From NCBI RefSeq assembly GCF_900111585.1, contig NZ_FOHI01000007.1, positions 62,001 to 126,000 on the forward strand: a DNA stretch of 64,000 bases, read 5' to 3'. Each line of letters opens with the position of its first letter. Position 1 is the first letter of the stretch. The translations under genes and the position numbers were made by a program. The stretch comes from Nitrosospira multiformis. Its GTDB lineage: Bacteria; Pseudomonadota; Gammaproteobacteria; Burkholderiales; Nitrosomonadaceae. Shown piece after piece: positions 12,801-64,000 of this stretch. The notes under the pieces were generated by a model. That model made no database searches and had not been told where the DNA came from. It saw only the letters and a list, made by a program, of their open reading frames with translations.

Positions 12801-15800
12801 TGGAACCCGCCATTCGCCCGAACAGCTGTGCATCGGTTTCAGTCGCATTGAGTTGGCGCAGGACAACGAGGCTATGAGTCCAGGCGAGATCGAAAACTCG
12901 ATTTTTCAGATGCTGGTCCTGGTATTTTTCTACCAGATGCATGACCGCGTGACGTGAATCTCCCGCACCCGTGACAATATCCACGATTGCCGACTCCCCC
13001 GGCTCGAGCATCATCCGCTTGCGGATGGCAACGACGGGGTCGAGCACTGAACCCGAACTGCCGGACAGCGGTCCCCCTTCCATCATTGCCGCCGGCGCAG
13101 ACACATCGCTTCCCCGTCCGATGAATGCCATGCGATTGGTCTCATAAGAAGCCGCTTCAGAAGTGATCCCATCCACCGTCATCAAGTGGAACATCCATGG
13201 TACCGGGTCGCTTTGGGAACGAGGACGCCTGCTGCATAAAATGGCGTGGCGGTCCGCCAATATTTCCGTTTGCACGAAGAGATTGCCGAAGGCTGGCGCC
13301 TGAGCATCGGCAATCGCGGGCGCCAGCACGACCTCGGCATAAGACGTGACCTCGATTTCCCGCCGCGTCCATGCGCGATTGGTGATGCGAATCCGCCGCA
13401 GTTCGATATCATCCTCGGGCGATACGGTAATCTCGGTATGGGTATCGAAATCCAGATCCCGCCGGCGGAACTCGACCCTTCCTTCAGAAAAAACCACTCC
13501 GTAACGCTTTGGCTCTTTCAGCACGGGCTGATAGGTACTCGACCAGAACTCACCGCTTGCAACGTCGCGCAAATAACAGAAATTCCCCCAGTAGTCGCAG
13601 GTTCCATCTTCCCGCCAACGCGTAATGGCCATATCCTTCCAGCGGCTGCTTCCCGCTCCGCTGTTGGTCACCATGACATGATACCGGCCATTGGAGAGAA
13701 GCTGCACCTCCGGAATGGGCGTGTTGGCGGTTGAAAGCAGCCGGATCGGCATTTCCGGAAGTTCCTTGATAACCCGCACATCGGGGAGCTCAGCGATGGG
13801 AGAACGTATGATAGTGGCTTTGGGAATTCTCTCCTGCAGCAGGAGCATGGTTGCCTGGAATATGGGCTCGGAATCGAACCGCCGCTGCATGGGCCGGTCA
13901 AGCAGCAGGTATGCAAGCGAAAGAAAACTCATTCCCTGATGGTGAGCCATGAATGAGCGCACGATCGCGGACGTCTCGCCCCGGCGCAGTCGCGAAGGCG
14001 TGTAATCCAGCGCTTCGTAAAAGCCGAATTTTCCCATCATACCCAGAGCGGTCAGCTCCTCCAGATTACGGCAGGCAGCTTCCGGTGCAACTATCAATGC
14101 CAGAGCGGATGCATAAGGTGCAATGACCAGGTCTTCTCCCAAGCCGCGTTTGAGGCCCAGGCCAGGCACCCCGAATGCCCGATACTGATAATTGAACTGA
14201 ACGTCTACAGCGTTGTAACCGGATTCCGAAATACCCCAAGGCACGCCCCGCTCCCGTCCATAGGCAATCTGTCTGTTGACAGCCGCCTTGCAGGTCTGGT
14301 CAAGAAGCGTGTTCTCAAAGGTGGGCATTACCAGCAACGGCATGAGGTATTCGAACATCGAACCGCTCCAGGAGAGCAGAGCAGTCTCCCCATCATGGGC
14401 TGTAAGCATTCGTCCCAGCGCAAACCAGCTTTCCTGCGGCAACTGGCCCTGTGCAATCGCGACAAAATTGGTAAATCGCGCCTCCGAGGCCAGCAGGTCA
14501 TAGTAGCTGGCGTCCCGTCGCTGCTCACCCACGTTGTACCCGATCGCAAGCTGCCGCTGCGCGGGGTTGAACAGGAAGCCGTACTCCATTTTCGCCATTT
14601 CTCCCGCCTGAAAGACCAGGCGTTCGAGAACAGCCAGATGTTCACGCGCTGCCTCGCCACCCTGGTTTGCAAGTTGTCGCAAAGAGGAGATCTCGGCGGG
14701 CGTATCGGGGTCCTCCTGGGCGGCAGACGGTATGAGACCGGCAAGTTCAGTTAGGGCGAGCTCACATTGCCGATTTAATGCCCTCGCCCACTCAAGCGCT
14801 TCCTGTCCGGTTGAAGCACGTCGTGCTTTCTCGATCTCTTGCACGATTTCCCTGGAAAGTGCAACCAGTCGATCAAGTTCGGCATGCAGGCTGAAAGGTG
14901 CGTGCGGAGAGTTTTCCCTTACGAGCATCAGCGCCTTGCCGAATTGTGATAAAGGAGCACTGGCAGCCTCAGAACCAGGAGTTCTCTCGAGAATCTGCAG
15001 AGTATCGGCAAGCGCCGGAAATAACTCTTCATGGACGACCGGCATATCCGCTATTGCCATTAACGCGACACGCAATGTCAATAGATGGCCTGCAAGATTA
15101 CCGCTGTCCACGCTCGATACGTAACGTGTCAAGGGAGTTTTTGTCTGCGTATCGTACCAATTGTAAAAATGGCCGGCATGGCGTTCCAGGGTTTCCATCG
15201 ATTCGAGCGTATTTCTGGTCCTCTCGATGAGTTGCAACGGGCCAATATAGCCGAAGTCATAGGCAGTCACATTTGCAAGCAGCGCCAATCCCATGTTGGT
15301 TGGCGATGTTCTGTGTGCGACAGTCGGTACGGGGTGCTCCTGAAAATTATCAGGGGGCAGCCAGTTACTCTCAGGACCGACGAAAGTTTCGAAGAAATAC
15401 CACGTACGGCGCGAAGTCTGTCGTAAAAAGTGGATTTGTCCCTTGCTTAACTCAGTGCTGCGCAGCGGAAGAGGCTGACTTATCCACCAGGCAATAAAGG
15501 GCGCTACCGCCCACAAAAGCAGTATGGGCAAGGCCGGAATCAGCGCCACGGGAGAAGCGACTATCATTCCCGCGCCTGCTGCTACCGCGGTCGCTGGCGC
15601 TATCCACATCGACCTGAAGGAAGTGCCGAGGCCGCCCCATCTATTCGTCGAATCATATTCGCGTTCCGCAAGATGGGAAGGAGTCCATTCAAGAAGCCGG
15701 CGGTGCGTGAGGAGGAGTCGCACATGAGTGCGCAGTATCGCATCGAGGCTGACATAAGCCTCGTACGGGAGACAGACCAGCCCAAACAGGTTTTGTGCGA

Positions 15801-18561
15801 AATGCCGTCCGCCAGTGCGCAGCGTAGTGACGATATGAGAGCGCAGAGGCGCGTCGGCCTGTCTTTTCAGCAGATCGGAGGTCATGGTAATGGCGCTCGG
15901 AATAATGACCGTGCCGATTACAACCAGTGTCCAGAACCACGCGTTGTCGAGCGCCAGCCAACCCACCAGCAGAAGCAGCAGCAGGGCTACCGGCACAAGA
16001 CTGCGCCGGAGGTTATCCATCAGCTTCCATCTCGACAAGATGGACAACGGGTTTGGCTGATTACTTCCGCCGGGACCCGGAACCCGGGCGAGCAACCAGC
16101 TCGCCAGTTGCCAATCCCCCCGTATCCAGCGGTGGCGACGGCCTACGTCCGCGCTGTAACGGGATGGAAATTGCTCATACAACTGTACGTCGCTCAACAG
16201 GCCGGCGCGAGCGTAGCAGCCTTCCAGGAGGTCATGGCTTAAAATCCTGTTGTCGGGAAAACGTCGGCAGACCGATTGCTCGAACGCATCCACGTCGTAG
16301 ATCCCTTTTCCGATAAAAGAGCCTTCGTAGAATAAATCCTGGTATACGTCCGAAACGACCCGGGTATAGGGATCGATGCCTGCTTCACCGCCAAATAGCC
16401 ATGCATACCGGGATCGGTTGGTGCTCGATAATGTCACCGCCACCCGGGGCTGCAGAATGCCATAGCCTTCCGTTACCACAGCGTTCCTGCTGGTCCTCTT
16501 GAGACGTGGCCGATTCAGGGGGTGGGCCATCGCTCCGACAAACTGATGGACGATCTCCCGCGGCAATTGGGTATCGGTATCGAGGGTGATGACGTACTTG
16601 ATACTGACAAGCAAATCCGTATTGCCCATTACCACGGAAAATGCCTCCCTCCCCTCGCCACGCAGGAGCGTATTCAAGTCCGCCAGTTTTCCGCGCTTGC
16701 GCTCATGACCCATCCACACCCCTTCTTGCGGGTTCCAGCGGCGAGGGCGGTGGAACAAAAAAAACCGTGTTTCCTGTTTCTGCGCTGACGCTTCCGGAGC
16801 GCCATTCATGCCACCGCTCATGTTACCTGCAATATGGCCCGCATACTTTCGATTGAGATCCTCGATCCCCGTGCGGGCGGTTCTCAATAAGGAATCATCT
16901 TCGGGAAGCGTTTCCTGATTCGCATCCATGAAGTCGGTGAGCAAGCCGAAATAGACATTCTCGTCCTGATTTGCCAAAAACCGGACTTCAAGCGCCTCCA
17001 CCAAGGCCGCGACTTCCGATTCCCGCGACAGCATGGTTGGAACCACGACCAGCGTTTGAAATGTGGAGGGAATGCCGTTGGAGAAATCCATGCGCGGCAG
17101 CAGATGAGGTTTCACCAGAAAAGGACTTGCCCAGTTGACCAGGGCGACAGCCAACTGACTCATCGCAAACAGCGCGAGCATGCCAACAAAACCTAACAGC
17201 CATCCACTTGCACCATCCTCGAGCGCTTCGACCAGCAGGGCACTCGTCAGACCCAGCGTGACTAATGCGATGCTACTGAGATACCAGAAAAGCGGGTATT
17301 TGCGGGTGGCACGCCAGAATTGCTCATGCAGCGACCAGCGGGCCTTTATCGCTTCCTCAAGATCAGCGAGACCATCGCCTGTCAGGTAAAATCCGACATG
17401 CTCCTTAACGTTCTCCTCGGCAGTACTTGTCGCTGGCTTACGCGCCAAGCGAAGCGCTGCCCGGGCCACATCCACTTCCGACAGAGGGCTTGCCTTGGCC
17501 AATCGCTCCACCACATGCCGGTAGTGGTCGCGGCTGGCGAAATCCATCTCCGGATAGATTCCACTTGGGTCTTCCCGGAGAGTCTGTTCCACAACGCTGG
17601 TAGTTTCGACGAATTCGCGCCAGTCTATGGCGCCCAGACTCCGCAAGCTGTTGATACTGTTTGAGATGGAAACCTGATCGGCAGCTTGCTGCTGATTTCC
17701 CAGTTGCACCAGTTGGTCGATCGTCTGGTTTGATTCTGCCAGTCGCTGCTCGATCCAGGTCAACGGGAGCACCAGGGCCGGTCCCTGCCCCTGCAATCGG
17801 CGCACCAGTTCCGAAATGAACGGGGTTGTCATGGGGGGATTCGATCGCGCCATATCTGCAATGACGAGAACGAGACTTTTCGGATCTTTTGCCGCCACCC
17901 GGATGATTTCATCGGCCCACGTATCGGCGAGATTGCGGTCTGCTCGGCCCGCTGCCACATGCACGCCGACACGGCGGAGATTTTCGATCAGCGATAGCCG
18001 CAGCATGATCGGTATCGCCCATAGTTCGCCCAGTTGCAGATTGACGACCGACTGGTACGCGGTTACGAAGCGCCTGAGGCTCTCTGTATCCACCCTGCCG
18101 TCCCCGTGCGATATGGCCTGCAATGCTATATCGTATACGCGGGGGAGATTGGCGGATGTGCCCTTGGCAAGGAGGGGTAATTCGCGGCTATAGCTTTTGG
18201 GAAGGTGACGTTTGGCAAGGCGAATCTGTTCCTCTATGAGGTAAAAGTTGTCGTAGAGCCACTCCCCCGCCGGAGTGAGCAACTTATCCGCCATGACTGC
18301 CTCGGTCAGCACACGGCAGATATTGAATAACGTTGCCTCATTCTCATCCAGCCTGGCCAATAACTGATCGGTGCCGCGCGCTGACGATAACTCGTGTGAA
18401 GCCGCCAGTATGCCACCGTAAAGCTCCATCTGATCCGCACCAAACAGTTCGGACCGCAGGGGAAGTTCTTCACTCAGTGGAATACGCGGCTTTCCGATAT
18501 TGCGAAGCCGCGCGGTAACCGGCCTCAAAAGCTCAGAAACAGGGGTGCCTTTAGCGTTCAA
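9859..18561 (-). CDS. Cyclic beta-1,2-glucan synthase-like protein (NdvB/ChvB family)
   Basis: A 2900-residue multi-domain membrane enzyme. In order: an N-terminal soluble region to about 410; membrane helices near 415-485; a GT84-type glycosyltransferase domain with a DTDTQLPRE motif near 663 and an RHRWIRGDWQ motif further on; several more helices (about 860-1060); a glucoamylase-like domain (GISESGYNAVD near 1443, MAHHQGMSF near 1540); and two GH94-like beta-sandwich repeats, each with YLRDxxSGxFWS. A phosphorylase-type catalytic (alpha/alpha)6 domain follows, with GTGDWNDGMN near 2577. NdvB/ChvB builds cyclic beta-1,2-glucan from UDP-glucose, elongating at the GT84 domain and trimming chain length at GH94. 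The product here is inferred. No export gene (NdvA/ChvA type) is adjacent. The length is within the family's usual 2700-2900. Confidence 0.88.
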   Translation of the reverse strand: MNAKGTPVSELLRPVTARLRNIGKPRIPLSEELPLRSELFGADQMELYGGILAASHELSSARGTDQLLARLDENEATLFNICRVLTEAVMADKLLTPAGEWLYDNFYLIEEQIRLAKRHLPKSYSRELPLLAKGTSANLPRVYDIALQAISHGDGRVDTESLRRFVTAYQSVVNLQLGELWAIPIMLRLSLIENLRRVGVHVAAGRADRNLADTWADEIIRVAAKDPKSLVLVIADMARSNPPMTTPFISELVRRLQGQGPALVLPLTWIEQRLAESNQTIDQLVQLGNQQQAADQVSISNSINSLRSLGAIDWREFVETTSVVEQTLREDPSGIYPEMDFASRDHYRHVVERLAKASPLSEVDVARAALRLARKPATSTAEENVKEHVGFYLTGDGLADLEEAIKARWSLHEQFWRATRKYPLFWYLSSIALVTLGLTSALLVEALEDGASGWLLGFVGMLALFAMSQLAVALVNWASPFLVKPHLLPRMDFSNGIPSTFQTLVVVPTMLSRESEVAALVEALEVRFLANQDENVYFGLLTDFMDANQETLPEDDSLLRTARTGIEDLNRKYAGHIAGNMSGGMNGAPEASAQKQETRFFLFHRPRRWNPQEGVWMGHERKRGKLADLNTLLRGEGREAFSVVMGNTDLLVSIKYVITLDTDTQLPREIVHQFVGAMAHPLNRPRLKRTSRNAVVTEGYGILQPRVAVTLSSTNRSRYAWLFGGEAGIDPYTRVVSDVYQDLFYEGSFIGKGIYDVDAFEQSVCRRFPDNRILSHDLLEGCYARAGLLSDVQLYEQFPSRYSADVGRRHRWIRGDWQLASWLLARVPGPGGSNQPNPLSILSRWKLMDNLRRSLVPVALLLLLLVGWLALDNAWFWTLVVIGTVIIPSAITMTSDLLKRQADAPLRSHIVTTLRTGGRHFAQNLFGLVCLPYEAYVSLDAILRTHVRLLLTHRRLLEWTPSHLAEREYDSTNRWGGLGTSFRSMWIAPATAVAAGAGMIVASPVALIPALPILLLWAVAPFIAWWISQPLPLRSTELSKGQIHFLRQTSRRTWYFFETFVGPESNWLPPDNFQEHPVPTVAHRTSPTNMGLALLANVTAYDFGYIGPLQLIERTRNTLESMETLERHAGHFYNWYDTQTKTPLTRYVSSVDSGNLAGHLLTLRVALMAIADMPVVHEELFPALADTLQILERTPGSEAASAPLSQFGKALMLVRENSPHAPFSLHAELDRLVALSREIVQEIEKARRASTGQEALEWARALNRQCELALTELAGLIPSAAQEDPDTPAEISSLRQLANQGGEAAREHLAVLERLVFQAGEMAKMEYGFLFNPAQRQLAIGYNVGEQRRDASYYDLLASEARFTNFVAIAQGQLPQESWFALGRMLTAHDGETALLSWSGSMFEYLMPLLVMPTFENTLLDQTCKAAVNRQIAYGRERGVPWGISESGYNAVDVQFNYQYRAFGVPGLGLKRGLGEDLVIAPYASALALIVAPEAACRNLEELTALGMMGKFGFYEALDYTPSRLRRGETSAIVRSFMAHHQGMSFLSLAYLLLDRPMQRRFDSEPIFQATMLLLQERIPKATIIRSPIAELPDVRVIKELPEMPIRLLSTANTPIPEVQLLSNGRYHVMVTNSGAGSSRWKDMAITRWREDGTCDYWGNFCYLRDVASGEFWSSTYQPVLKEPKRYGVVFSEGRVEFRRRDLDFDTHTEITVSPEDDIELRRIRITNRAWTRREIEVTSYAEVVLAPAIADAQAPAFGNLFVQTEILADRHAILCSRRPRSQSDPVPWMFHLMTVDGITSEAASYETNRMAFIGRGSDVSAPAAMMEGGPLSGSSGSVLDPVVAIRKRMMLEPGESAIVDIVTGAGDSRHAVMHLVEKYQDQHLKNRVFDLAWTHSLVVLRQLNATETDAQLFGRMAGSILYASPYLRADEALLSKNRQGQSGLWGYAISGDLPIVLLQITDMANIDLVRQLVQAHAYWRVKGMAVDLVIWNEDHSSYRQQLHDHIMGLLAGSAEAHVLDRPGGIFIRRGEQIAPEDRILMQAVARVIILDTNGKLVEQLTSRLPADLPLRPHPLKPARRSNSEETGVLPQRNLLFDNGFGGFASDAREYVITVGQDRRTPVPWSNILANSQFGTVISESGNVYTWCENAHEYRLTPWHNDPVCDSSGEAYYLRDEESGDFWSPAPLPSPGAASYVTRHGFGYSVFEHAGKGVFSELWIYVARDVPVKFVVLRIRNDSGRPRRLSATGYVEWVLGDLPEKTRMHVVTEIDPASGVLLARNPYNNEFSSRVAFFDVDDRTQSMTGDRTEFIGRNGRMRNPAGMVAQDLSGRVGAGLDPCGAIRVPFDLPAGATREVVFRLGAGLHREDALETVQRMRGLQVAHDELEKVRRYWDRTLGGVQVETSDPSVNVMVNGWLLYQVIACRLWGRSGYYQSGGAFGFRDQLQDVMALVHVEPALVREHLLRAAARQFIEGDVQHWWHPPVGRGIRSRCSDDYLWLPLVACHYVVATGDTGVLNETVSFLEGRPVASDEESYYDLPAHSAQVSSLYDHCVRAIMHGLRFGEHGLPLMGTGDWNDGMNLVGFHGRGESIWLGFFLYDILIQFSSLAAGHGDAAFAERCKKEADKLGKNIEQHGWDGKWYLRAYFDDGSPLGSSSNTECRIDSIAQSWSVLSRGGSPERQRKAMQAVDEQLVRRDARLIQLLDPPFDHSDLDPGYIKGYVPGVRENGGQYTHAAIWATMAFAVLRDHKRAWELLSMINPVNHGRSSQAVSVYKTEPYVVSADVYAVLPHTGRGGWSWYTGSAGWLYRLMLETMLGLTREGAKLHFNPCLPEDWASFTVKYRYGETVYPIIVNQAAIDPDKEVVIVDGAEQRELTLSLVDDRAPHNVEVRVSRSRDTLKQ

Positions 18562-25306: not shown

Positions 25307-27859
25307 TCATGCCTTAGGCGAAGGGCTGAATCCCAGCTTTTTCATGGCAGGAACTATCGATTGATTCGTCTCTGCGTAGTCGGCCCAGGGGTCATTACCC
25401 TTATCCAGGCGTTCATGAATATTGGAGGCAGACCAGCGAGTACTGCTTTTCAACGAGGATAGTTCTTCCCACGCCAACGGTACAGAAACACCCAATCCAG
25501 GCCGTGCGCGTACTGACCAGGCGGATACGGTGGTGGCTCCGAACCCATTGCGCAGGTAATCGATGAAGATCTTTCCCACCCGGTTGCGCGGCCCGCTTTT
25601 TGCGGTGAAACGTGTCGGAATGGTTTTAGCCAGATGCTGTACGATGCCCTGAGAGAAACCTTTCACCGTATCCCAATCGCGCAGCCTCCTGATCGGCACG
25701 ATGATATGCAAACCTTTGCCCCCACTCGTTTTCAGGAAAGATTTCAACCCCAGTTCCCTGAGAAAGACATTGACGAGCTGCGCCGACTCCTGGATGAGGG
25801 CCCATTCGACTCCGCTGCCGGGGTCCAGGTCGAACGTGATTCTGTCAGGCTTGCCAATGACATTCTTGGTGGCGTTCCACGTATGGAACTCGATCACGTT
25901 CATCTGCGCTGCGGAAAGAAGGCCTTCAGCGGTTGAAACTTCGAGCAACGGAGGGTGGTCAGGGTCGAGCGAGGGATCAAGCTGCTCAACCCCCGGCATG
26001 TTCTCTTTCTCCCAATGCTTCTGAAAAAAGAGTTCGCCCGATACCCCCTCGGGAGCGCGCACGAGCGAGACCGGCCGCTGCGCGAGATGGGGCAGCATCA
26101 AAGGCGCTACCAGCGAGTAGTAGCGTATGAGATCGATCTTTGTAAACCCGGTGGAGGGGTCAATCACCCGGTCCGGGTTCGTCACTTTCAGGGTTTTTGG
26201 AATGGCGCTTGCAGGCGCCGACTCCGCGGCAGGATGCACGGGCTTCTCGCGAACAATGACATTCGCCTTTTTGTCCGATCTCAAACCGTGGAATACCGAG
26301 TGGCGAATGTGACCCCCTTGCGTCCATTCACCGAAGGAGACTTCTGCGATAAGCCGGGGTTCGACCCAATGCGCGTTTTTATCGATGCCACTCGCTTTCA
26401 CAAAAGGGTTATCCGTCGAAGCAATTCTGTCCAACTTTGCCCTGAGGTCCTGCAGCGTCTTATCGCTGAATCCCGCGCCCACATTTCCCGCATATCTGAG
26501 TTTTCGGTCTTCATCATAAAAGCCGAGCAGCAAAGATCCGATACCCTTTCGCGTACCTTTGGGATCTGTATATCCGCCGATAACGAATTCCTGGCGGTTT
26601 TTACATTTAAGTTTTATCCAGTCCTGAGATCGGCGCGAGACATAAACAGAGGTTTTACGTTTGCCGATCACCCCTTCCAGTCCAAGTCGGCAGGCGGAAT
26701 CGAGAATTTTTGCTGGAGAGGCCTCGAAAACGTCGCTGAAGCGTATTTCATCGGGGGAGTGTGCCTCAACCAGTTTTTGCAGTAACGCGCGGCGTTCGAC
26801 AAGGGAAGCGTCCCGCAAATCATACCCATCATAGAAGGGCACATCGAAGAGATAATAAATGATGCGCTCGGTACGCGCGCTATCGAAGGCATTCTGCAAC
26901 GACTGGAAATCGGGAATGCCATGTGCATCCAGCACCGCAATTTCCCCATCGAGCCACCCCGACTTCAATCTCATCTTCCCTATTGCTTTTACCAGATGCG
27001 GGAGCTTACGGGACCAGTCATTTCCGTTTCGCGTTATGAGGCGAACTTCTCCTCCCTCTATTCTGCTCAACATCCGATACCCGTCAAACTTGATTTCGTA
27101 AATCCACTCTTCCGGATCCAAAGGGGGTTCGTCCACAAGTGTGGCGAGCTCCGGCGTCAATGTGTGCGGAAGATCGGCCTTGCGCGCATTGTCCGGCAAG
27201 GCCGTTTTCGTTCCCTTTCGCGATATCGAACTGCTTTTGGGTGATCCGCTTCCCAATGTTGCGGAAGCCTTGGAAGGCTCTGGCAGGTCGAGTTCGGCCA
27301 CACTGTCCGGCATTTCGTCCACCACGCTATACTCCCGCGATGAACGCACATATTCATCCTTTTCTTTTATCAGCAGCCAGGGTTCCTGCTTTTTGTTTTC
27401 CTCCTTTCTCATGCGCACCAGAGTCCAGTGCCCTTTCAGCTTGAGCCCGCGCAGCTCGAATTTCAGCTTGCCGTCACGATACCCCTTGTGCGGATCTTCG
27501 AGAGGAAGCCAGGTTCCCTTATCCCAAATAATGACTTTACCAGCGCCATACTGAGCTGAGGGTATCTCGCCCTCAAAACTGTTATAGGAAATGGGATGGG
27601 CTTCGACGTGGACCGCCATGCGTTTGTCGTTAGGGTCGAAACTGGGGCCTTTGGGGACAGCCCAGCTCTTCATCGTTCCTTCCAGTTCCAGTCTGAAGTC
27701 GTAGTGCAGACGCGTTGCCCAGTGCTTCTGGACAACAAACGACAAAGCCTTAGCAGTGCTCTTGAGGGCTGCCTTGCCGCTGGCAGCGCCGCTCGGCTCA
27801 GGTGTTATCGAGAAATCACGTTTGGCACGATAAGTTTTAAGCGAGTCATCATTTCTCAT
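25307..27859 (-). CDS. ligD: Multifunctional DNA ligase D (bacterial NHEJ)
   Basis: An 850-residue enzyme with three modules in the order phosphoesterase, ligase, polymerase. The PE domain (about 28-190) shows HWATRLHYDFRLELEG. The ligase domain has the nucleotidyl-lysine motif EIKFDGYR near 255, motif III and IV segments (WLDGEIAVLD, GLEGVIGKR) and motif V-like WIKLKCK, followed by an OB fold. The polymerase/primase domain (about 545-845) has PVSLVRAPEG, a DLDP metal-binding pair near 690 and KTSGGKGLHI. LigD ends-processes and seals double-strand breaks with Ku. It starts 15 bp after the ku stop and is clearly co-transcribed. Confidence 0.95.
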   Translation of the reverse strand: MRNDDSLKTYRAKRDFSITPEPSGAASGKAALKSTAKALSFVVQKHWATRLHYDFRLELEGTMKSWAVPKGPSFDPNDKRMAVHVEAHPISYNSFEGEIPSAQYGAGKVIIWDKGTWLPLEDPHKGYRDGKLKFELRGLKLKGHWTLVRMRKEENKKQEPWLLIKEKDEYVRSSREYSVVDEMPDSVAELDLPEPSKASATLGSGSPKSSSISRKGTKTALPDNARKADLPHTLTPELATLVDEPPLDPEEWIYEIKFDGYRMLSRIEGGEVRLITRNGNDWSRKLPHLVKAIGKMRLKSGWLDGEIAVLDAHGIPDFQSLQNAFDSARTERIIYYLFDVPFYDGYDLRDASLVERRALLQKLVEAHSPDEIRFSDVFEASPAKILDSACRLGLEGVIGKRKTSVYVSRRSQDWIKLKCKNRQEFVIGGYTDPKGTRKGIGSLLLGFYDEDRKLRYAGNVGAGFSDKTLQDLRAKLDRIASTDNPFVKASGIDKNAHWVEPRLIAEVSFGEWTQGGHIRHSVFHGLRSDKKANVIVREKPVHPAAESAPASAIPKTLKVTNPDRVIDPSTGFTKIDLIRYYSLVAPLMLPHLAQRPVSLVRAPEGVSGELFFQKHWEKENMPGVEQLDPSLDPDHPPLLEVSTAEGLLSAAQMNVIEFHTWNATKNVIGKPDRITFDLDPGSGVEWALIQESAQLVNVFLRELGLKSFLKTSGGKGLHIIVPIRRLRDWDTVKGFSQGIVQHLAKTIPTRFTAKSGPRNRVGKIFIDYLRNGFGATTVSAWSVRARPGLGVSVPLAWEELSSLKSSTRWSASNIHERLDKGNDPWADYAETNQSIVPAMKKLGFSPSPKA

Positions 27860-55865: not shown

Positions 55866-57245
55866 TTATAAGGCCTTGACCATGTCTTCGACGACCTTCT
55901 TGGCATCCCCGAATATCATCATGGTCTTGTCCATGTAGAAGAGATCGTTGTCCAGCCCGGCATAACCCGCAGCCATGCTGCGTTTGACCACCATTACCGT
56001 ACGCGCTTTATACGCATCCAGAATGGGCATGCCGTAGATCGGACTACCCGGCACATTTGCAGCTGGATTCACCACGTCGTTTGCGCCAAGCACAAGCACC
56101 ACGTCGGTATTGGAAAAATCGCTGTTGATCTCATCCATCTCCAGCACCTGCTCATACGGTATCTCGGCTTCGGCCAGCAGCACGTTCATGTGCCCCGGCA
56201 TGCGCCCTGCAACAGGATGAATGGCAAAACGCACATTCACACCTTTCTTGTGCAGCATTTCCGCCAGTTCCTTCACCGCATGCTGCGCCCTGGCCACGGC
56301 CAACCCGTAGCCCGGCACGATGATGACGCTGTCAGCATTTCCCATGATGAAAGCGGCATCGTCCGCGCTGCCGCTGCGGTAGGTCTTTTGCGTCCCGTCC
56401 CCTACCACGGCGGCTCCCCCCTCACTCCCGAACCCGCCCAGTATGACGGAGAGGAATGGGCGGTTCATCGCCTTGCACATGATATAGGACAGGATCGCGC
56501 CCGAACTCCCCACCAGTGATCCCGCGATGATCAGCATGGGATTGCCAAGTGAGAACCCTATACCGGCCGCTGCCCACCCGGAGTAGGAATTGAGCATGGA
56601 AATGACCACGGGCATGTCAGCGCCGCCAATCGGAATGATGATGAGAAAACCGAGCACAAACGCAATCGCGGTCATGGTGGCGAAGGCAGTCCAGTTCGTG
56701 GTGGCGCTGAAGAAAAACCACAGACCGAATCCAATCATGATAATCGCCATGGCCAGGTTGACCCTATGCTGACCGCCGAAAGTGATGGGTGCGCCACTCA
56801 TCCGGCCTGACAATTTGAGGAAGGCTATCACCGAACCCGACCAGGTCATGGCGCCGATGAATGTACCAAGAAACAGTTCCAGCTTGCTGCCCATCGGCAA
56901 TGTCTCGGGCAAACCAAAGGAAGCGGGATTATTGACAGCGGCGATGGCGATGAATACCGCCGCCAGACCGACGAGGGAGTGCATGAACGCGACCAGTTCC
57001 GGCATCGCGGTCATTTGCACACGCCGCGCCACAACGGCGCCGATGGCGCCTCCCAGCCCGATACAGACGATGATCAACGCCCAGTTCTTGGTGATGGTAA
57101 GCGTGGTAATGACCGCGATTACCATCCCGACGATCCCGAACTGATTCCCGCGTCGGGCGGAGAGCGGCGAGCTTAAACCTTTTAGCGCCAGGATGAAGAA
57201 AACCGAGGCGATAAGATACGCGAGAGCGACCGTATTTGCCGACAT
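55866..57245 (-). CDS. pntB: NAD(P) transhydrogenase subunit beta
   Basis: A 459-residue membrane subunit. The first 250 residues hold about eight helices, including LVAFMHSLVGLAAVFIAIAA with proton-pathway residues. The C-terminal NADP-binding domain III (about 280-459) shows VIIVPGYGLAVARAQHAVKELAEML, FAIHPVAGRMPGHMNVLLAEA and LVLGANDVVNPAA. Together with PntA it uses the proton gradient to reduce NADP with NADH. pntA2 ends 3 bp upstream and pntA1 precedes it. The start is supported by a nearby GGAAG. Confidence 0.95.
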   Translation of the reverse strand: MSANTVALAYLIASVFFILALKGLSSPLSARRGNQFGIVGMVIAVITTLTITKNWALIIVCIGLGGAIGAVVARRVQMTAMPELVAFMHSLVGLAAVFIAIAAVNNPASFGLPETLPMGSKLELFLGTFIGAMTWSGSVIAFLKLSGRMSGAPITFGGQHRVNLAMAIIMIGFGLWFFFSATTNWTAFATMTAIAFVLGFLIIIPIGGADMPVVISMLNSYSGWAAAGIGFSLGNPMLIIAGSLVGSSGAILSYIMCKAMNRPFLSVILGGFGSEGGAAVVGDGTQKTYRSGSADDAAFIMGNADSVIIVPGYGLAVARAQHAVKELAEMLHKKGVNVRFAIHPVAGRMPGHMNVLLAEAEIPYEQVLEMDEINSDFSNTDVVLVLGANDVVNPAANVPGSPIYGMPILDAYKARTVMVVKRSMAAGYAGLDNDLFYMDKTMMIFGDAKKVVEDMVKAL

Positions 57246-57248
57246 TGA

Positions 57249-57554
57249 CTAGCTTCCTTTTTTATCTTTTTTTCTGAACATTTCCAGCATCCGCTGGGTA
57301 ACAAGAAATCCCCCGAATACGTTGATCGCAGCCAGCGTTACCGCGGCAGCCCCCAGCCATACCCCCCAGTCGGTTTCCGCCGGCCCGGCGGCGAGCATGG
57401 CGCCGACGAGAATAATGCCGGAAATCGCGTTGGTCACCGACATCAATGGCGTGTGCAGGGCCGGGGTCACATTCCAGACCACGTGATAACCCACGAACAC
57501 GGCCAGCACGAATACAGTGAGATTAATAATGGTTGGGTCAATTTCACCAATCAT
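57249..57554 (-). CDS. pntA2: NAD(P) transhydrogenase subunit alpha, part 2 (membrane)
   Basis: A 101-residue protein with about three helices: [37 protein letters not shown] and [19 protein letters not shown]. This is the C-terminal membrane part that is fused to PntA in E. coli but split in many alpha- and betaproteobacteria. The conserved [17 protein letters not shown] segment is intact. An AAGGAGCG ribosome-binding site precedes it. It lies between pntA1 and pntB; with them it builds the transhydrogenase. Confidence 0.95.
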
Positions 57555-57659
57555 GATCGCTCCTTCTAATCTGTTAATTTTTTACCAGGACACGAACCGG
57601 GGGAGGAAAAGCAACGGTTAAAGCACAGGCGCTGCTTTTCAGCCCGGGGGCATGTTCCT

Positions 57660-58787
57660 TCAGGTTTTCCCGATGACTTCCCCGTTGGCGCACACCAGGG
57701 TTCCGGCGATGATTTCGTCTTCACGATTTATATTGAGTTCACCCGTCTTTGCATCAAGCATCAGGTTGAGAAAATTCATCAGGTTGCGTGCATACAGGGC
57801 GCTGGAATCCGCGGCTACCAGTCCGGGCAGATTGGCAATGCCGACAAGATGCACGCCATGTTTCACGACGACCTTGTTCAATTCAGACAAGGGACAGTTG
57901 CCACCGGCTTCAACCGCCAGGTCGACAATAACAGAACCCGGTTTCATCGCCTGCACCGTTTCTTCCCGGATCAGCACGGGGGCCGGACGGCCGGGAATCA
58001 GCGCCGTCGTAATAATGATGTCGGCCGCAGCGGCGCGCTGGTGCACCAGTTCGCCTTGGCGCCGTTTGTAATCCTCCGACATTTCGCGCGCGTATCCACC
58101 CGCGGTTTCCGCTTGCGCCTTTTCCTCGTCGCTGAGCGCAACCTCGACAAACTTGGCGCCCAGGCTTTCCACCTGCTCCTTGGCTGCCGGGCGCACATCG
58201 AATGCTTCGATTACCGCCCCCAGCCGTTTGGCGGTCGCAATGGCCTGCAATCCCGCTACCCCCGCGCCCAGAACCAATACTCTCGCCGCCTTTACCGTAC
58301 CGGCCGCTGTCATCAGCATGGGGAAAAATTTCTGGTAGATGTTGGCCGCCATGATCACCGCCTTATATCCGGCGATGTTGGCCTGTGACGACAGCACATC
58401 CATACTCTGGGCGCGCGAAATGCGTGGCAGTTTCTCCATCGAAAAAGCGGTTATGCCGTGAGCGGCGAGCGCCTCGATGCCCTCCGCCTGATGCGGAGAA
58501 AGCAGTCCAACCAATACGGCATCCTTGCGCATCAATGCGAGTTCAGACGCTTCGGGCGCGCGCACCTTGAGCATGATCTGAGATTGGCCATACAGCTCGC
58601 CGGGATCGGTCACAATACTTGCGCCGGCAGCCTGGTATTCCGCGTCCGGTATGCTCGCGCCCGCACCCGCGCCGGACTGTACCAGAACGACATGCAAACC
58701 TTTGGCGGTAAATTTCTTGACCGTCTCCGGCGTGGCGGCAACCCGGGTTTCTCCCCCACGGGTCTCTGCCGGTATTCCTATATGCAT
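57660..58787 (-). CDS. pntA1: NAD(P) transhydrogenase subunit alpha, part 1 (NAD-binding)
   Basis: A 375-residue soluble domain I of the proton-translocating transhydrogenase. It starts MHIGIPAETRGGETRVAATPETV. The NAD-binding fold VLVLGAGVAGLQAIATAKRLGA lies near 167-188 and is followed by the acidic FDVRPA end of strand 2. The mobile loop region near EMSEDYKRRQG and the SELNKVVVKHGVHLVG segment agree with the family. It is split from the membrane part, encoded by pntA2 105 bp downstream. It starts with a GGGAGA ribosome-binding site and is the first gene of the pnt set, 366 bp after the large flavoprotein gene. Confidence 0.95.
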   Translation of the reverse strand: MHIGIPAETRGGETRVAATPETVKKFTAKGLHVVLVQSGAGAGASIPDAEYQAAGASIVTDPGELYGQSQIMLKVRAPEASELALMRKDAVLVGLLSPHQAEGIEALAAHGITAFSMEKLPRISRAQSMDVLSSQANIAGYKAVIMAANIYQKFFPMLMTAAGTVKAARVLVLGAGVAGLQAIATAKRLGAVIEAFDVRPAAKEQVESLGAKFVEVALSDEEKAQAETAGGYAREMSEDYKRRQGELVHQRAAAADIIITTALIPGRPAPVLIREETVQAMKPGSVIVDLAVEAGGNCPLSELNKVVVKHGVHLVGIANLPGLVAADSSALYARNLMNFLNLMLDAKTGELNINREDEIIAGTLVCANGEVIGKT

Positions 58788-59153
58788 GAATATCTCCCTT
58801 TATCTTTCTTGTATGCGCCACGCTCGGTGGCGAGGTGAAAAGCCCCTTGCACCTATCGCACAGCCCTATTCCAACAAAAACCCCGAATTATAAATGAACC
58901 TGGGCACAATGCAGTGCTCGATCAAATGAAAACCGATTCTTTTCTCCAACTTTCCGCCAGTCCTTTCTCTTGTAAGTGGGATCAGCGGACTTGAAAAGAT
59001 CTCAATTGCGCGCTTCTGGTTATAACAATTCATGGAAGTGCAGAAGTGGAGGCGAGCTCTGCCGACAACGTTTTCATCGTCCGGCAGAACCGCCCGCAAT
59101 TGTTTTGATTTGGAAAAGACCGGGATTCCCGTTTTCTGGAAAGGCGATGTTCC
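58788..59153. other. Gap between flavoprotein and transhydrogenase genes
   Basis: A 366-bp gap between same-strand genes. It may hold the pnt promoter. Short open frames present here have no supporting feature. I see no terminator with a clear T-run after the flavoprotein gene. Confidence 0.4.
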
Positions 59154-62100
59154 CTATTTAATGACGGGCTCCGCAGAAACTTCGAGTTCCGGCTGGCTCG
59201 TCTCTTTCAGGCAATGGCTGATCCAGCGGGTGGTCAATTTCTCCTGCACGCTGTTCTGGCGCAAACGCGATGCCAATCCGCTGAAATCGACCTGATCGAG
59301 CGGTTGATCCTGGTTGAAGCACGAAAACACATATGTAATTTCTCCGGTCTTCGGGTCCTTATGGGGTTGCAGGCATTGAGCGCAGATTTCTTTCATCATG
59401 CACTGCATAGGCGAGTTGATGGAGCCGATCGCGAAGTGATCCGTTTTCAGGTAGGGTTTCAACCGGGTATGGCGGGCCGCGCCTACAGCCGCCATCATTC
59501 TGTCGGAACCAATGGCAATGATGCGGTCGGCATCCGCCAGACGGATTTTCTGCGGTCCCAGGGCGCCGCTTCCGTAAGCAGCCATTGCCTCGACGATGTT
59601 TCCTACAAAACTATAATCGCCCGGCCTGGAAGGCGTGAAACCCGGTGCTTCATCGCAGCACCAGATCACCACGTCGGCCGCAGCCTCGATTTCGGCCACC
59701 TTGTAACGGTCGATCAGCTTCTTGTACCCTGCAAAATACAGGATTTTCGATCCCGCAGCCCGTGCCGCAGCACCGATGGAGAACAGCACGGCGTTCCCGA
59801 GCCCGCCACCCACCAATGCCACGGTCTCATCCGGCAGAATTTCTGTAGGCGTGCCGGTCGGGCCCATCAGAACGACAGGATCTCCCGGATTAAGTCTTGC
59901 ACATAAATCCGCGGACCCGCCCATCTCCAGTGCAATGAGAGAAACCAGCCCGCGGGAAACATCCACCGAGGCGCCGGTAAGCGCAATGCCTTCCATCGCA
60001 AGTTTGGTATCGCCTGCTGTTGTGGCAAGCGTTGCAAAATTCTGGAAGCGATAGAATTGGCCCGGATGAAAGCGTTCCACTGCCATCGGCGCATGCACGA
60101 CGACCTCCACGATATTGGGCGTGAGGCGTTCGACTTTGTGCACGGTTGCGCGCAGCCTGCCATTGATCTCTGCAAAAAATAGCCAGGCCGGCTTCGTGGA
60201 AGCGGGTGCCAGGCGTTCAAGCACGTGGCTGACCACGGGATAACCCTGCTTGGCGCTGGACATCGCTTTCACCACATTCCCCGAATAGGACGGATGCAGG
60301 TCGCCGAAGAAGCTGATGAAACGCCCATCCTCGTTACGACTCAGCAGTACGGTGGGATGCTCAGGCTTGGGATTCCCGCGTGCCGGATTTGCCGGATCGC
60401 CGTTTTCATCGCAGGCGGCAAAATAGCGTCCATGGAGCTTGAAATGTTTATCGTCCTCCCGCGCAAGCACCGTATTGGGCTGCGTTCCCGCCGCGACCAG
60501 AACAGCGCGGGCAGGCAATACGGCTTGCCCGGTTTTCTGCCAGGAGCCGGTTTCGTCGAGCGCCTGTACCGCAAAATGCACAGCCTTTGCATGCTCCCAT
60601 CTATCGGTATCCACACGGACGGGAGTGAGCCCTTCGGCAAACCATATACCCTCCTCCATGGCTTTTTCGACTTCTTCATGGTTGAGCGTGTAGGAAGGGC
60701 TGTCGATGAGGCGTTTTCGATAAGCGATCGTCGCGCCTCCCCAGGATTGCAGCAACTCAAGTATTCGCGGGGCGCGTCCTTCCCGTTCCGCTTCCTTGCG
60801 CTCTGCCCGAATGGCGCGGGCATGGCTGAGAAACTCCTCGGCAATTTCTCGTTCTTCCTCATCCCAGGCCCCACGGATCGCTGCTTCGCCCTGGACGGCA
60901 ACAAGAATTTCATAGCGGCGCAGGAACTTGTCCACTTGCACGGGATAGTATGCCAGTGCTTCGGTCGCGGTATCGATGGCTGTCAACCCCCCGCCGATGA
61001 CCACCACCGGCAGGCGCAACTGCATGTTGGCAACCGAGTTGCTCTGAGCCGCGCCGGTCAACTGCAATGCCATCAGGAAATCGGACGCAGCGCGAACTCC
61101 CCGCGCCAGACCATTGGGCAAATCAAGCACGGTAGGACGTCCTGCTCCTGCAGCGAGCGCTACATGATCGAATCCCATGGCGAACGCATCGTCCGCAGTG
61201 AGTGTTCCGCCGAAGCGGACACCGCCAAAAAGCGCAAACTCTTCCCGCCGCTCCAGAAGCAGGCGGATCAGCTTGAGAAAGTTCTTGTCCCAGCGGACAG
61301 TGATGCCGTATTCCGCAACACCGCCGAAACCGCCAGGCATGCGCTCATCCAGATTCTCTGCCAGCTCATCCGTATTGCGGACGGCCCTGAACGGAACGTG
61401 CTCCCCCTGCTTGTTCACGCCGGAGAGTTCCGGTTCCAGGGGCTCGATCTTGAGACCATCGATTCCAACCACGGTATGACCGTCATTCATCAAATGATGC
61501 GCCAGGGTATATCCCGCTGGCCCCATGCCCACCACCAGCACCTTGCGGCCCGTCGGTGTCTTCGGCACAGGTCGACGCAGATTGAGCGGATTCCAGCGAG
61601 TCAGGAGGCTGTATATCTCGAATCCCCAGGGCAGTTCCAGGACATCCTTGAGGGTACGCGTCTCGGCCTGCGGGATATCGACCGGTTCCTGCTTCTGATA
61701 AATGCAGGATTTCATGCAGTCGTTGCAGATACGATGACCCGTGCCGGCACACATGGGGTTGTCGATGACAATCATCGCGAGGCCGCCTATCGCCACGCCC
61801 TGCGTCTTGAGTTTGTGAAATTCCGAAATGCGCTCTTCCAGAGGACATCCTGTCAGCAGCACGCCAAGCTGGCTTTTCTTGAAGGTAACAGGCTCATCGG
61901 GTGTTTTTTGTTTTTCTTTCATCCCCTTGGAACAGGAATCCTTCCCCTGTTCATGGCACCAGATGCAGTAATTCGCCTCATCCAGGGCTCCCACCAGATC
62001 GGTTCCCCGGTCGGTGAGGGAAAATCCTTCCCGGCGGCGTATATGATGAAGCTTGTGAATTGTATAACCTGCCGACGTGTCCGTTTCCGTTGACAATAGA

Positions 62101-62747
62101 TGCAGGAAATCGAGCTTGGCGGGGGCCTTGAACAATACGCCAGTTGCATTGCGCTTCCGTCCGGCAGGAGTCTTCAACGCCCAGGCGGCATACAGCAAGG
62201 CATCCTTGAGGCGATCTTCATTCGCGCTCTCGTCCAGCAGCCACTCCGTCACTTTTGTTGCAAAAACCAGCTCTGAGAAAGGAGTGCCGAATTCGGCCGC
62301 CAGTTTTGCTTCCAGTGCAACGCCATCCACTGCGGCAGCATCCGCCTCACTGACCTTGTTCATGGCGCGCCGCTGGACGAACAGCCTCTTGCAGGAATAA
62401 AGGGGTGCGAGCTGATGATGACGTGCCGCAAGCGCTCCGGCTTCTTTCTCTATGCCGAATAGCTTGGCAATGAAATCCTCCATCCAGGGCGCGACTTCAA
62501 TCAGCAGTGCAGCTTCTTCCTTGCGATCGAGATGATCGGGTTGGATTCGCGCATGCTCCAGACGAACACGTAGTCCCGGCTCTCCTTCATCGAGAAAACC
62601 AAGGAATGCCTGATCCAGTCTCACCAGCCCTTCCCGACGATACAGGTCGGCAAAAGCCATGCCAAACCCCAGCGCCGGAGATGGAACGTCAGATGCCTGT
62701 GCCGGGTGAAGCGCCGATTGTAAACTTGTCATGATAAAGTCATTCAA
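59154..62747 (-). CDS. Fused GltD-like and PyrK-like flavoprotein (NfnAB-like)
   Basis: A 1197-residue cytoplasmic redox protein. Residues 1-250 form a domain I do not recognise. Cys-rich segments follow (CIWCHEQGKDSC near 264, CPLEE, then CAGTGHRICNDCMKSC near 335), like the iron-sulfur region of GltD-type small subunits. A two-dinucleotide-fold reductase comes next, with VLVVGMGPAGYTLAHHL near 402 (FAD) and VVVIGGGLTAIDTATEAL near 582 (NADPH). From about 855 a ferredoxin-reductase/PyrK-like module begins (FHPGQFYRFQNF, ALVGGGLGNAVLFSIGAA), ending in a Cys cluster for a [2Fe-2S] centre near 1110-1140. GltD- and PyrK-like modules are the two subunits of NfnAB, the bifurcating NADH-dependent ferredoxin:NADP oxidoreductase. 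The activity here is inferred. The N-terminal extension and fusion are the odd parts. Confidence 0.82.
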   Translation of the reverse strand: MNDFIMTSLQSALHPAQASDVPSPALGFGMAFADLYRREGLVRLDQAFLGFLDEGEPGLRVRLEHARIQPDHLDRKEEAALLIEVAPWMEDFIAKLFGIEKEAGALAARHHQLAPLYSCKRLFVQRRAMNKVSEADAAAVDGVALEAKLAAEFGTPFSELVFATKVTEWLLDESANEDRLKDALLYAAWALKTPAGRKRNATGVLFKAPAKLDFLHLLSTETDTSAGYTIHKLHHIRRREGFSLTDRGTDLVGALDEANYCIWCHEQGKDSCSKGMKEKQKTPDEPVTFKKSQLGVLLTGCPLEERISEFHKLKTQGVAIGGLAMIVIDNPMCAGTGHRICNDCMKSCIYQKQEPVDIPQAETRTLKDVLELPWGFEIYSLLTRWNPLNLRRPVPKTPTGRKVLVVGMGPAGYTLAHHLMNDGHTVVGIDGLKIEPLEPELSGVNKQGEHVPFRAVRNTDELAENLDERMPGGFGGVAEYGITVRWDKNFLKLIRLLLERREEFALFGGVRFGGTLTADDAFAMGFDHVALAAGAGRPTVLDLPNGLARGVRAASDFLMALQLTGAAQSNSVANMQLRLPVVVIGGGLTAIDTATEALAYYPVQVDKFLRRYEILVAVQGEAAIRGAWDEEEREIAEEFLSHARAIRAERKEAEREGRAPRILELLQSWGGATIAYRKRLIDSPSYTLNHEEVEKAMEEGIWFAEGLTPVRVDTDRWEHAKAVHFAVQALDETGSWQKTGQAVLPARAVLVAAGTQPNTVLAREDDKHFKLHGRYFAACDENGDPANPARGNPKPEHPTVLLSRNEDGRFISFFGDLHPSYSGNVVKAMSSAKQGYPVVSHVLERLAPASTKPAWLFFAEINGRLRATVHKVERLTPNIVEVVVHAPMAVERFHPGQFYRFQNFATLATTAGDTKLAMEGIALTGASVDVSRGLVSLIALEMGGSADLCARLNPGDPVVLMGPTGTPTEILPDETVALVGGGLGNAVLFSIGAAARAAGSKILYFAGYKKLIDRYKVAEIEAAADVVIWCCDEAPGFTPSRPGDYSFVGNIVEAMAAYGSGALGPQKIRLADADRIIAIGSDRMMAAVGAARHTRLKPYLKTDHFAIGSINSPMQCMMKEICAQCLQPHKDPKTGEITYVFSCFNQDQPLDQVDFSGLASRLRQNSVQEKLTTRWISHCLKETSQPELEVSAEPVIK

Positions 62748-63004: not shown

Positions 63005-64000
63005 CTAACCTTTTGAAGGACAGATCATTCCTGCGGCCACGGTATTGTTCGTAACCTCATCAATCACGATGAAGCTGCCGGTGGCGTGGTTACGCTGGTA
63101 TGCATCCCATACCAAAGGTTGATGGACCTTGAGCGATACCCGCGCAATGTCATTCATTTTGAGAATATCAGCGGCTTCATGTTTCAGGGTATTGATATCC
63201 AGTCGATACTCTATGCGGGATATGACGGCTTTTACCAACCGTGTAGAGTGCTTGATCAGGTATTTGCGTCGGGGATCGAGGCTCTGCTCAGACAACCAGC
63301 ACAGCATCGCATCAAATTCTTTTGTAACCTGGGGAAGCTGGGAAATTTTTACCAGCATGTCTCCCCTTGATATATCCAGATGATCTTCAATCGTCAGCGT
63401 TACCGACTGGGGCGCAACCGCATCCTCGACATTTCCTTCATAGGTAACAATCTCCTTGATGCGCGAAGTCAAGCCGGAAGGCAGAACCTGCACCTCCTCA
63501 CCCACACTGATGGAACCGGATTCGATACGGCCCATGTAGCCCCGGAAGTCATGCCATTCCTCCGTTTGCGGGCGGCACACCAATTGCACGGGAAAGCGAA
63601 AATCTTCAAGGTTGATGTCATGGTCAACCGGAACCTTTTCCAGTAAATCCATCAACGTCATGCCTTCGTACCAGCCGAGGTTGTTGCCGCGCTCGACCAC
63701 CATGTCGCCGTTCAGCGCGGACATCGGAATATAGGCGATGTTTTTCAGATTGAGTCCGGCCACGAAACGGTGAAATTCCTGGCAGATTCGTTCAAATACG
63801 TCCCGGGAGTAATCCACCAGATCCATCTTGTTGACCGCCACCACCAGATGAGGAATACCGACGAGGCTGGCGAGGTAGGCATGACGACGGGATTGCGTGA
63901 GCACACCCTTGCGCGCGTCGATCAGGATAATGGCAAGATTGGCGGTGGAAGCGCCGGTCACCATGTTGCGGGTATATTGCTCATGGCCCGGCGTGTCAGC
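63005..64000 (-). CDS. cysN: Sulfate adenylyltransferase subunit 1 (GTPase), 5' end outside window
   Basis: The visible 331 codons begin inside the GTPase domain with ADTPGHEQY (G3 motif DxPGHE) and continue with NKMD (G4) and a translation-factor-like beta-barrel pair. The ending of the EF-Tu-like fold is complete (SFIVIDEVTNNTVAAGMICP). CysN is the GTP-hydrolysing partner of CysD, which activates sulfate with ATP to APS. cysD and the P-loop lie to the right, outside the window. Whether an APS-kinase domain (CysC) is fused can be excluded here because the stop at 63005 follows directly after domain 3. Confidence 0.92.
   Translation of the reverse strand, partial: ADTPGHEQYTRNMVTGASTANLAIILIDARKGVLTQSRRHAYLASLVGIPHLVVAVNKMDLVDYSRDVFERICQEFHRFVAGLNLKNIAYIPMSALNGDMVVERGNNLGWYEGMTLMDLLEKVPVDHDINLEDFRFPVQLVCRPQTEEWHDFRGYMGRIESGSISVGEEVQVLPSGLTSRIKEIVTYEGNVEDAVAPQSVTLTIEDHLDISRGDMLVKISQLPQVTKEFDAMLCWLSEQSLDPRRKYLIKHSTRLVKAVISRIEYRLDINTLKHEAADILKMNDIARVSLKVHQPLVWDAYQRNHATGSFIVIDEVTNNTVAAGMICPSKG

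Follow-up and report, generated by a model that had tools for sequence, protein, structure and literature searches.

A single-chain Nfn-like Fe-S flavoprotein between the cys and pnt genes of Nitrosospira multiformis: a candidate donor for a sulfite reductase without CysJ

The 64,000-nucleotide window analyzed here (Nitrosospira multiformis, an ammonia oxidizer of the Nitrosomonadaceae; contig NZ_FOHI01000007.1, positions 62,001 to 126,000) carries on its minus strand, at 59154..62732, the gene for an Nfn-like single-chain Fe-S flavoprotein of 1192 amino acids (aa), hereafter FLV, which lies between genes of sulfate assimilation (cys) and the genes of the transhydrogenase Pnt. Where an assimilatory sulfite reductase occurs without CysJ, the bacterium has to draw the electrons from some other donor, which is often unassigned. 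The likeliest reading, which we put forward tentatively, is that FLV may be such a donor in this host: NADPH-dependent, acting directly or via ferredoxin on a CysJ-less sulfite reductase, and thereby replacing CysJ. Elsewhere, the FLV family probably has a broader function as an NAD(P)H:ferredoxin-type reductase and has been recruited several times by sulfate-assimilation blocks. The proposal starts from what could be observed directly, namely the domain order, the conservation of ligands, the predicted fold, the gene neighborhood and the lack of a CysJ match in the host genome (3.2 Mb; the window is on its contig 16), which holds one FLV match.

An earlier reading of this DNA, made from the letters alone (the sequence-only reading), had described a protein of 1197 residues. 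That frame is present (59154-62747, minus strand, with a TTG start at 62747), although the gene at 59154-62732 is the likelier one, because the ATG at 62732, five codons inside the TTG frame (MTSLQ or alike), is shared by many congeners; residues are numbered here from that ATG. Along the chain follow a helical N-terminal domain (residues ~1-235; 62028..62732), a two-[4Fe-4S] domain (residues ~236-390; 61563..62027), a GltD/NfnL-like FAD and NADP module (residues ~391-845; 60198..61562), which holds a helical insert of ~60 residues near 598-663, and a PyrK/NfnS-like module (residues ~856-1180; 59193..60167), all encoded on the minus strand. The sequence-only reading had likewise seen a GltD-like and a PyrK-like module in one chain, and the sequence matches, the ligands and the NfnL and NfnS folds agree with it; its minimum of three Cys clusters is matched by three predicted cluster-binding regions, and its N-terminal domain of roughly 250 residues without a known family by ~235 helical residues for which family searches gave results at chance level.

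The two [4Fe-4S] clusters would be held by C256, C259, C267, C296, C336, C339, C343 and E357, and the [2Fe-2S] cluster by C1111, C1117, C1120 and C1138, the allotment of ligands to clusters following that in homologues. All 12 predicted ligands (eight for the two [4Fe-4S] clusters and four Cys for the [2Fe-2S] cluster) are invariant in 69/69 rows of an alignment that consists of the window protein (replacing L088; our labels for loci and genomes begin with L and G) and 68 loci from a set thinned at 74% identity. Most of the [4Fe-4S] ligands align with those of NfnL and fall in the stretch that aligns with GltD. R480, also kept in 69/69 rows, has residue 201 of P. furiosus NfnL (5jca_L) as its counterpart in the alignment and corresponds to R187 of T. 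maritima, because the numbering of 5jca_L runs 14 ahead; the accessible text of PMC6405883 places R187 at N5 of the bifurcating flavin. At this b-FAD position, E. coli GltD reads GGLLTFGIPAFKLEK, with Lys, versus GGVLIYGIPEFRLPK in NfnL, a comparison made by motif register, as the automatic alignment has a gap there. In the predicted NADP site of the window protein, Y671-R672-K673, the Tyr is invariant, R672 is found in 67/69 rows and residue 673 is R or K in 68/69; a YRR site is linked to NADP(H) in the accessible text of PMC7596348.

The NfnS side is altered. The a-FAD motif ERxPxT reads EG(I/L)A(L/M)T in the FLV rows (EGIALT in the window protein), with the motif's Thr kept in 66 rows and replaced by Ser in 3, and with its Arg in none of the 69. 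The Nfn [2Fe-2S] motif DGTGMCGxCR is not matched, FLV reading PMQCMMKEICAQC; in the alignment, the place of the NfnS Asp ligand is taken by C1111, with one inserted residue after C1111, and it is this Asp that gives the [2Fe-2S] cluster of NfnA its high potential, according to the accessible text of PMC6405883. R895 and T919 (66/69 rows each) might, at a guess, help to hold a flavin. FLV is, as judged from these residues, Nfn-like, with a predicted NfnL side that is complete and with the NfnS-side Asp and the a-FAD Arg altered.

An AlphaFold2 model built with 69 sequences (pLDDT 93.3, pTM 0.92) is closest to NfnL (5jfc_L, Z 28.1, 2.1 Å over 439 residues), followed by Xfn (5vj7_A, Z 27.5) and GltD (7mfm_I, Z 27.1; 2vdc_G, Z 26.5); as the GltD chains score less than 2 Z below NfnL, the two cannot be told apart by fold alone. 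NfnS is also found in the model (5jca_S, TM 0.90 by target length; 4yry_C, Z 14.9 over 259 residues). Structure alignments made with VIA-align mainly cover residues 229-950. Profile searches by module, which the sequence-only reading had suggested as a check, gave Pyr_redox_2 (1.1e-13) in Pfam, where Fer4_20 stayed under its cut-off; NfnL, GltD and NfnS/PyrK chains were matched by sequence. The best NCBIfam match, with the N-terminal domain included, and the nearest described family is NF005128/PRK06567, "putative bifunctional glutamate synthase subunit beta/2-polyprenylphenol hydroxylase"; FLV remains under its cut-off (761 bits versus 1072), which was exceeded in 0/210 sampled genomes. The N-terminal domain has no invariant Cys or His and matched no known family: nothing better than E 0.27 was found among Protein Data Bank (PDB) sequences, and Pfam gave no match for the window protein and a single match at 0.008 in 1/30 relatives, which is chance level. 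Folded alone from one sequence, this domain reached a pLDDT of 46, too poor for a fold search.

FLV therefore resembles NfnAB in having both modules, two [4Fe-4S] sites with a Glu ligand, the b-FAD Arg and the YR(R/K) NADP motif. It differs in being one chain with the NfnL part ahead of the NfnS part, in its extra N-terminal domain of ~235 residues and its insert of ~60, in the four Cys of its [2Fe-2S] site, in its altered a-FAD motif and in an identity of 23-28% over the aligned structure. GltD, the small subunit of glutamate synthase, has no PyrK-like module, whereas FLV has one. The accessible text of PMC6405883 describes fused Nfn homologues of "pattern C" from Actinobacteria, Alphaproteobacteria and Gammaproteobacteria, which have the NfnA-like part C-terminal and are ~200 residues longer than the clostridial fused Nfn; FLV is likewise fused with its NfnA-like part C-terminal, a likeness drawn from that description.

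A search of genome contigs yielded at least 564 confirmed relatives of FLV, and a scan of viral contigs with a single protein yielded none, so viral carriage is unsupported. A match was found in 48/61 genomes (the host included; a few are weak paralogue matches) and in 35/36 other Nitrosomonadaceae; the one Nitrosomonadaceae genome in which FLV was not matched, G034 (1.3 Mb, 92% complete), gave no PNTB match either. The FLV family is a widespread, uncharacterized Fe-S flavoprotein, a known enzyme build in a new arrangement, and no description of its function was found in the literature searched, among the matches listed. Two Nitrosomonadaceae genomes of 1.3 and 1.8 Mb have a single in-frame TAA within FLV (L059 in G025 and L055 in G028). 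Very divergent homologues (32-40% identity) occur in genomes of 1.3-1.4 Mb without a NIR_SIR match (L226, L227 and L222), the first two with a common downstream block that looks, by inspection, like ABC transporter and lipid A-type genes.

On the minus strand of the host, the order is a NIR_SIR protein, cysH, cysD, cysN, FLV, pntA1, pntA2 and pntB, the first three lying beyond the window edge, upstream of cysN. The latter (sulfate adenylyltransferase large subunit; 63005..64000, minus strand) is cut by the window edge and measures 427 aa in full in L187; it ends 272 bases before the ATG of FLV. A divergent CysB, over its curated cut-off, stands at the head of the block, and CysH exceeds the cut-offs of thioredoxin-dependent APS reductase and PRK02090. 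The NIR_SIR protein has 697 aa with NIR_SIR and NIR_SIR_ferr domains (L187:5339-7432), and we infer from its neighbors that sulfite is its substrate. Its C-terminal stretch is left uncovered by Pfam at E 1e-5; in some relatives, cysI is followed by a separate DUF934 protein. On the other side of FLV, library matches place pntA1 (transhydrogenase alpha, NAD-binding part) at 57660..58787, pntA2 (the PNTB_4TM membrane part of alpha) at 57249..57554 and pntB (transhydrogenase beta) at 55866..57245, all on the minus strand. The sequence-only reading had placed these three genes correctly, downstream on the same strand, where they begin after 366 bases; it overlooked the sulfate-assimilation genes just upstream, a linkage that also exists in lineages without pnt linkage. 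Terminator- and promoter-like sites around FLV are about as numerous as in shuffled sequence.

Relatives were surveyed at 203 loci with a match. The 169 that were kept have a frame of 1000-1320 aa that starts with ATG and reaches its stop within the locus; among the others are L055 and L059, with their broken frames, and L175 and L235. At least one cys gene, from a wider cys set, lies within 6.5 kb of FLV in 32/32 intact Nitrosomonadaceae loci. Within the fetched stretches, cysN is found in 32/34 Nitrosomonadaceae loci (the exceptions, L057 and L060, each have other cys genes), including the two with broken FLV frames, and pntB is also found in 32/34 (in the exceptions, L058 and L060, PNTB is located elsewhere in the genome). 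The pnt linkage, for which the sequence-only reading had proposed such a survey, is thus conserved and yet narrower than the cys linkage: pnt was near FLV in 0/23 loci outside the Nitrosomonadaceae, some of which have very short flanks (e.g., L024 and L071). In the set of 169, three loci have pnt without a cys gene near FLV, L139 from Candidatus Nitrotoga and L142 and L145 from two other beta lineages; in these lineages, linkage to pnt may predate linkage to cys. In part of Nitrosomonas (L057, L060, L114, L115, L118 and L143), the cys genes and FLV are separated, or FLV is directly followed, by a receiver protein, an EAL response regulator resembling PvrR and/or a small open reading frame (ORF).

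Over the whole set, 61/169 loci and 52/139 distinct proteins are cys-linked (the loci include some from genomes that were fetched twice), and in all 61 the nearest match of each cys gene is on the FLV strand. Outside the ammonia oxidizers, 8/94 distinct FLV proteins are cys-linked. The linked loci described next belong to the class taken below to be Alphaproteobacteria, apart from L175. The order cysH-cysD-cysNC-FLV occurs in L074, L175 (a named Alphaproteobacteria record) and L239, with 2, 3 and 15 bases, respectively, from the stop of cysNC to the ATG of FLV. L236 has NIR_SIR, a cysG-like gene and FLV; L235 has cysI, cysH and FLV; NIR_SIR-type matches lie directly upstream of FLV in L237, L238 and L154, and a cysG-like match in L241. 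On a FastTree phylogeny of 103 rows (L088-L106 and loci with <5 kb upstream were left out), 34 rows are cys-linked, of which 26 are in the ammonia-oxidizer clade, and the distribution needs 7 changes, 5 of them forced by starred branches; for pnt linkage, found in 22/94 rows, 5 changes are needed. Long branches leave the placement of some small-genome rows unsure.

Co-occurrence was assessed in one evenly drawn sample of 210 genomes of one class, that around G123. This class is regarded as Alphaproteobacteria, given that four of its members (G068, G505, G198 and G524) fall together with rows of Dongia, Reyranella and Rhodospirillales in the tree. Counting FLV at E under 1e-20 and CysJ-like proteins at E under 1e-40 (G361, at 40 bits, was left out), 48 genomes have FLV, 112 NIR_SIR, 11 CysJ-like and 117 NAD_binding_1 (FNR-type) matches. 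NIR_SIR lies within ~6 kb of FLV, on the same strand, in at least 5 of the 26 genomes that have both (G123, G365, G456, G465 and G503), against an expectation of ~0.5 genomes even if each genome had three NIR_SIR loci (P ~1e-4, in a test set up after the pattern had been seen). NIR_SIR without a NAD_binding_1 match is found in eight FLV-containing genomes, including G123, G365 and G473. CysJ-like proteins are independent of FLV (3/48 genomes with it versus 8/162 without). CysN- and CysD-like matches are also seen near FLV in G476 (L217), a genome without a NIR_SIR match. Among 29 selected FLV-containing genomes, NIR_SIR is present in 28, the exception being 70% complete, and the CysJ cut-off is passed only by G030, others having weaker partial matches. 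In G030 (L062), CysJ and a CysI-type gene lie ~5-7.5 kb upstream of a retained FLV-pnt block, on the opposite strand, beyond the radius or the query set of the locus survey; this genome either still requires FLV or has yet to lose it. A NAD_binding_1 frame of 613 aa is found inside the fetched stretch of G027.

Several observations weigh against the donor proposal. The gaps of 272 and 366 bases around the host FLV are wide. PF01077 takes in nitrite reductases too, and the host NIR_SIR protein, whose best NCBIfam matches are of the NirA, ferredoxin-nitrite reductase and CysI types, is under every curated NCBIfam cut-off shown. The host genome has one NAD_binding_1 protein (C18, 369 aa), in a search that did not extend to ferredoxin reductases of the TrxR and FprA types. 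Most loci outside the ammonia oxidizers have no cys gene near FLV. In the sample of 210, NIR_SIR is independent of FLV (26/48 genomes with FLV versus 86/162 without, p = 1.0), which speaks against one exclusive role, and 22/48 FLV-containing genomes have no NIR_SIR match, so donation to sulfite reductase cannot be the only role of the family. Fifteen genomes without FLV (e.g., G358, G359 and G364) have NIR_SIR and neither a CysJ-like nor a NAD_binding_1 match, and some further donor must serve those. Finally, CysJ and FLV coexist in G030 (719 bits), G173 (513 bits) and G542 (629 bits), with partial matches in G404 and G198. A strict substitution for CysJ across the whole family was accordingly rejected, there being no co-occurrence with NIR_SIR and both proteins being held by some genomes.

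The same numbers sustain the strongest rival, which we consider distinctly less probable: FLV would be a general NAD(P)H:ferredoxin oxidoreductase without a dedicated partner, and its cys and pnt neighbors would reflect a common need for reductant. The 22 genomes without NIR_SIR fit this explanation; several small genomes among them lack NAD_binding_1 as well (G374, G420, G438, G445, G451, G454, G484 and G529), and the neighbors of FLV there resemble, by inspection, unrelated housekeeping genes. Against it stands the recurrence of same-strand cys linkage in separate lineages, and FLV and NAD_binding_1 are not complementary overall (23/48 genomes with FLV versus 94/162 without, p = 0.25); the idea that FLV complements FNR-type reductases was dropped on this non-significant result.

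Another possibility, an unlikely one in our estimation, is the idea of the sequence-only reading that FLV bifurcates electrons, as an Nfn-type transhydrogenase coupling NADPH, NAD and ferredoxin and, with Pnt, serving as a redox balance device. Of the likeness to NfnAB, both halves, the predicted ligand set, the folds and the b-FAD Arg stand, whereas the NfnA-type Asp ligand and the a-FAD Arg do not. The two [4Fe-4S] sites with their Glu ligand and the b-FAD Arg are in 69/69 rows, but so are the Cys at the [2Fe-2S] Asp position and the absence of the ERxPxT Arg, which leaves bifurcation unsupported. The neighborhood is similarly divided: pntB is regularly near FLV in Nitrosomonadaceae and pnt genes accompany it in L139, L142 and L145, but none of the 23 other loci has pnt nearby. 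PNTB is present in 31/35 sampled genomes, and G438, G476 and G541 have FLV without a PNTB match; an obligate partnership with Pnt was rejected on these grounds. We also know of no evident source of reduced ferredoxin in ammonia oxidizers, which are aerobes. Less probable still is a combination of the two ideas, in which assimilatory sulfite reduction in an aerobe would be coupled by bifurcation: NADPH made by Pnt would be split at an Nfn-type FAD, one electron passing via [4Fe-4S] to sulfite reductase and the other via the four-Cys [2Fe-2S] cluster and a C-terminal flavin to NAD+. Least probable of all is that FLV serves some other enzyme as its reductase subunit, for instance one of the glutamate synthase type or a 2-oxoacid:acceptor oxidoreductase, since its GltD-like core and the glutamate synthase-type NCBIfam names are countered by the Arg that it has, by motif register, where E. 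coli GltD has Lys, and by recurrent neighbor clusters in which no such gene stood out, though no search was aimed at one. A KorC-like role, as part of a 2-oxoacid oxidoreductase, was likewise rejected, none being seen among the recurrent neighbors, again with no targeted search.

The proposal that FLV donates electrons to sulfite reductase has precedents. In E. coli, CysJ is the known NADPH donor of the assimilatory enzyme and is encoded with cys genes; it is of the FMN/FAD diflavin type, and FLV gave no Pfam or NCBIfam match to such a flavodoxin-plus-FNR architecture. A closer precedent is DsrL, which, according to the accessible text of PMC7596348, is related to NfnB and works with DsrAB using NAD(P)H; the type of DsrL that uses NADPH is associated there with sulfite reduction. 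Like FLV in our proposal, DsrL is an NfnB-related Fe-S flavoprotein serving a sulfite reductase with NAD(P)H. It differs in its C-terminal two-[4Fe-4S] domain and its dsrAB linkage, the C-terminus of FLV being of the FNR/[2Fe-2S] kind and its neighbors cys and pnt genes. In C. glutamicum, according to the accessible text of PMC1266029, fpr2 lies beside cysIXHDNYZ, without cysJ, and its phenotype is confined to the lag phase; Fpr2 is the proposed NADPH donor of the assimilatory enzyme, encoded with cys genes, and unlike FLV has an FprA/adrenodoxin-reductase build. A ferredoxin-dependent sulfite reductase has been assayed with ferredoxin and FNR, as the accessible part of PMC13188885 reports.

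If FLV is the donor, it would be a soluble, single-chain, NADPH-dependent Fe-S flavoprotein of Nfn-like build. By analogy with its homologues, NADPH would reduce the FAD of the GltD/NfnL-like module, and electrons would exit via the two [4Fe-4S] clusters to ferredoxin or directly to the siroheme enzyme. The C-terminal FNR-like [2Fe-2S] module may be a second port for a pyridine nucleotide or an acceptor. The adjacent Pnt would draw on the proton gradient to form this NADPH from NADH. Ammonia oxidizers gain their NADH by reverse electron flow, and Pnt as a source of NADPH fits with this.

Elsewhere in the window, at 9859-18561 on the minus strand, there is a frame of 2900 aa with GH94 supersandwich and catalytic domains and a glucoamylase-like domain, presumably of the cyclic glucan synthase type, and at 25307-27859, also on the minus strand, a LigD with phosphoesterase, ligase and primase-polymerase domains.

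FLV is thus a concrete and testable candidate for the donor of sulfite reductases that work without CysJ. If the proposal is true, aerobic ammonia oxidizers would have a route from Pnt to sulfite, and the precedent of DsrL would be extended from dissimilatory to assimilatory sulfur metabolism.

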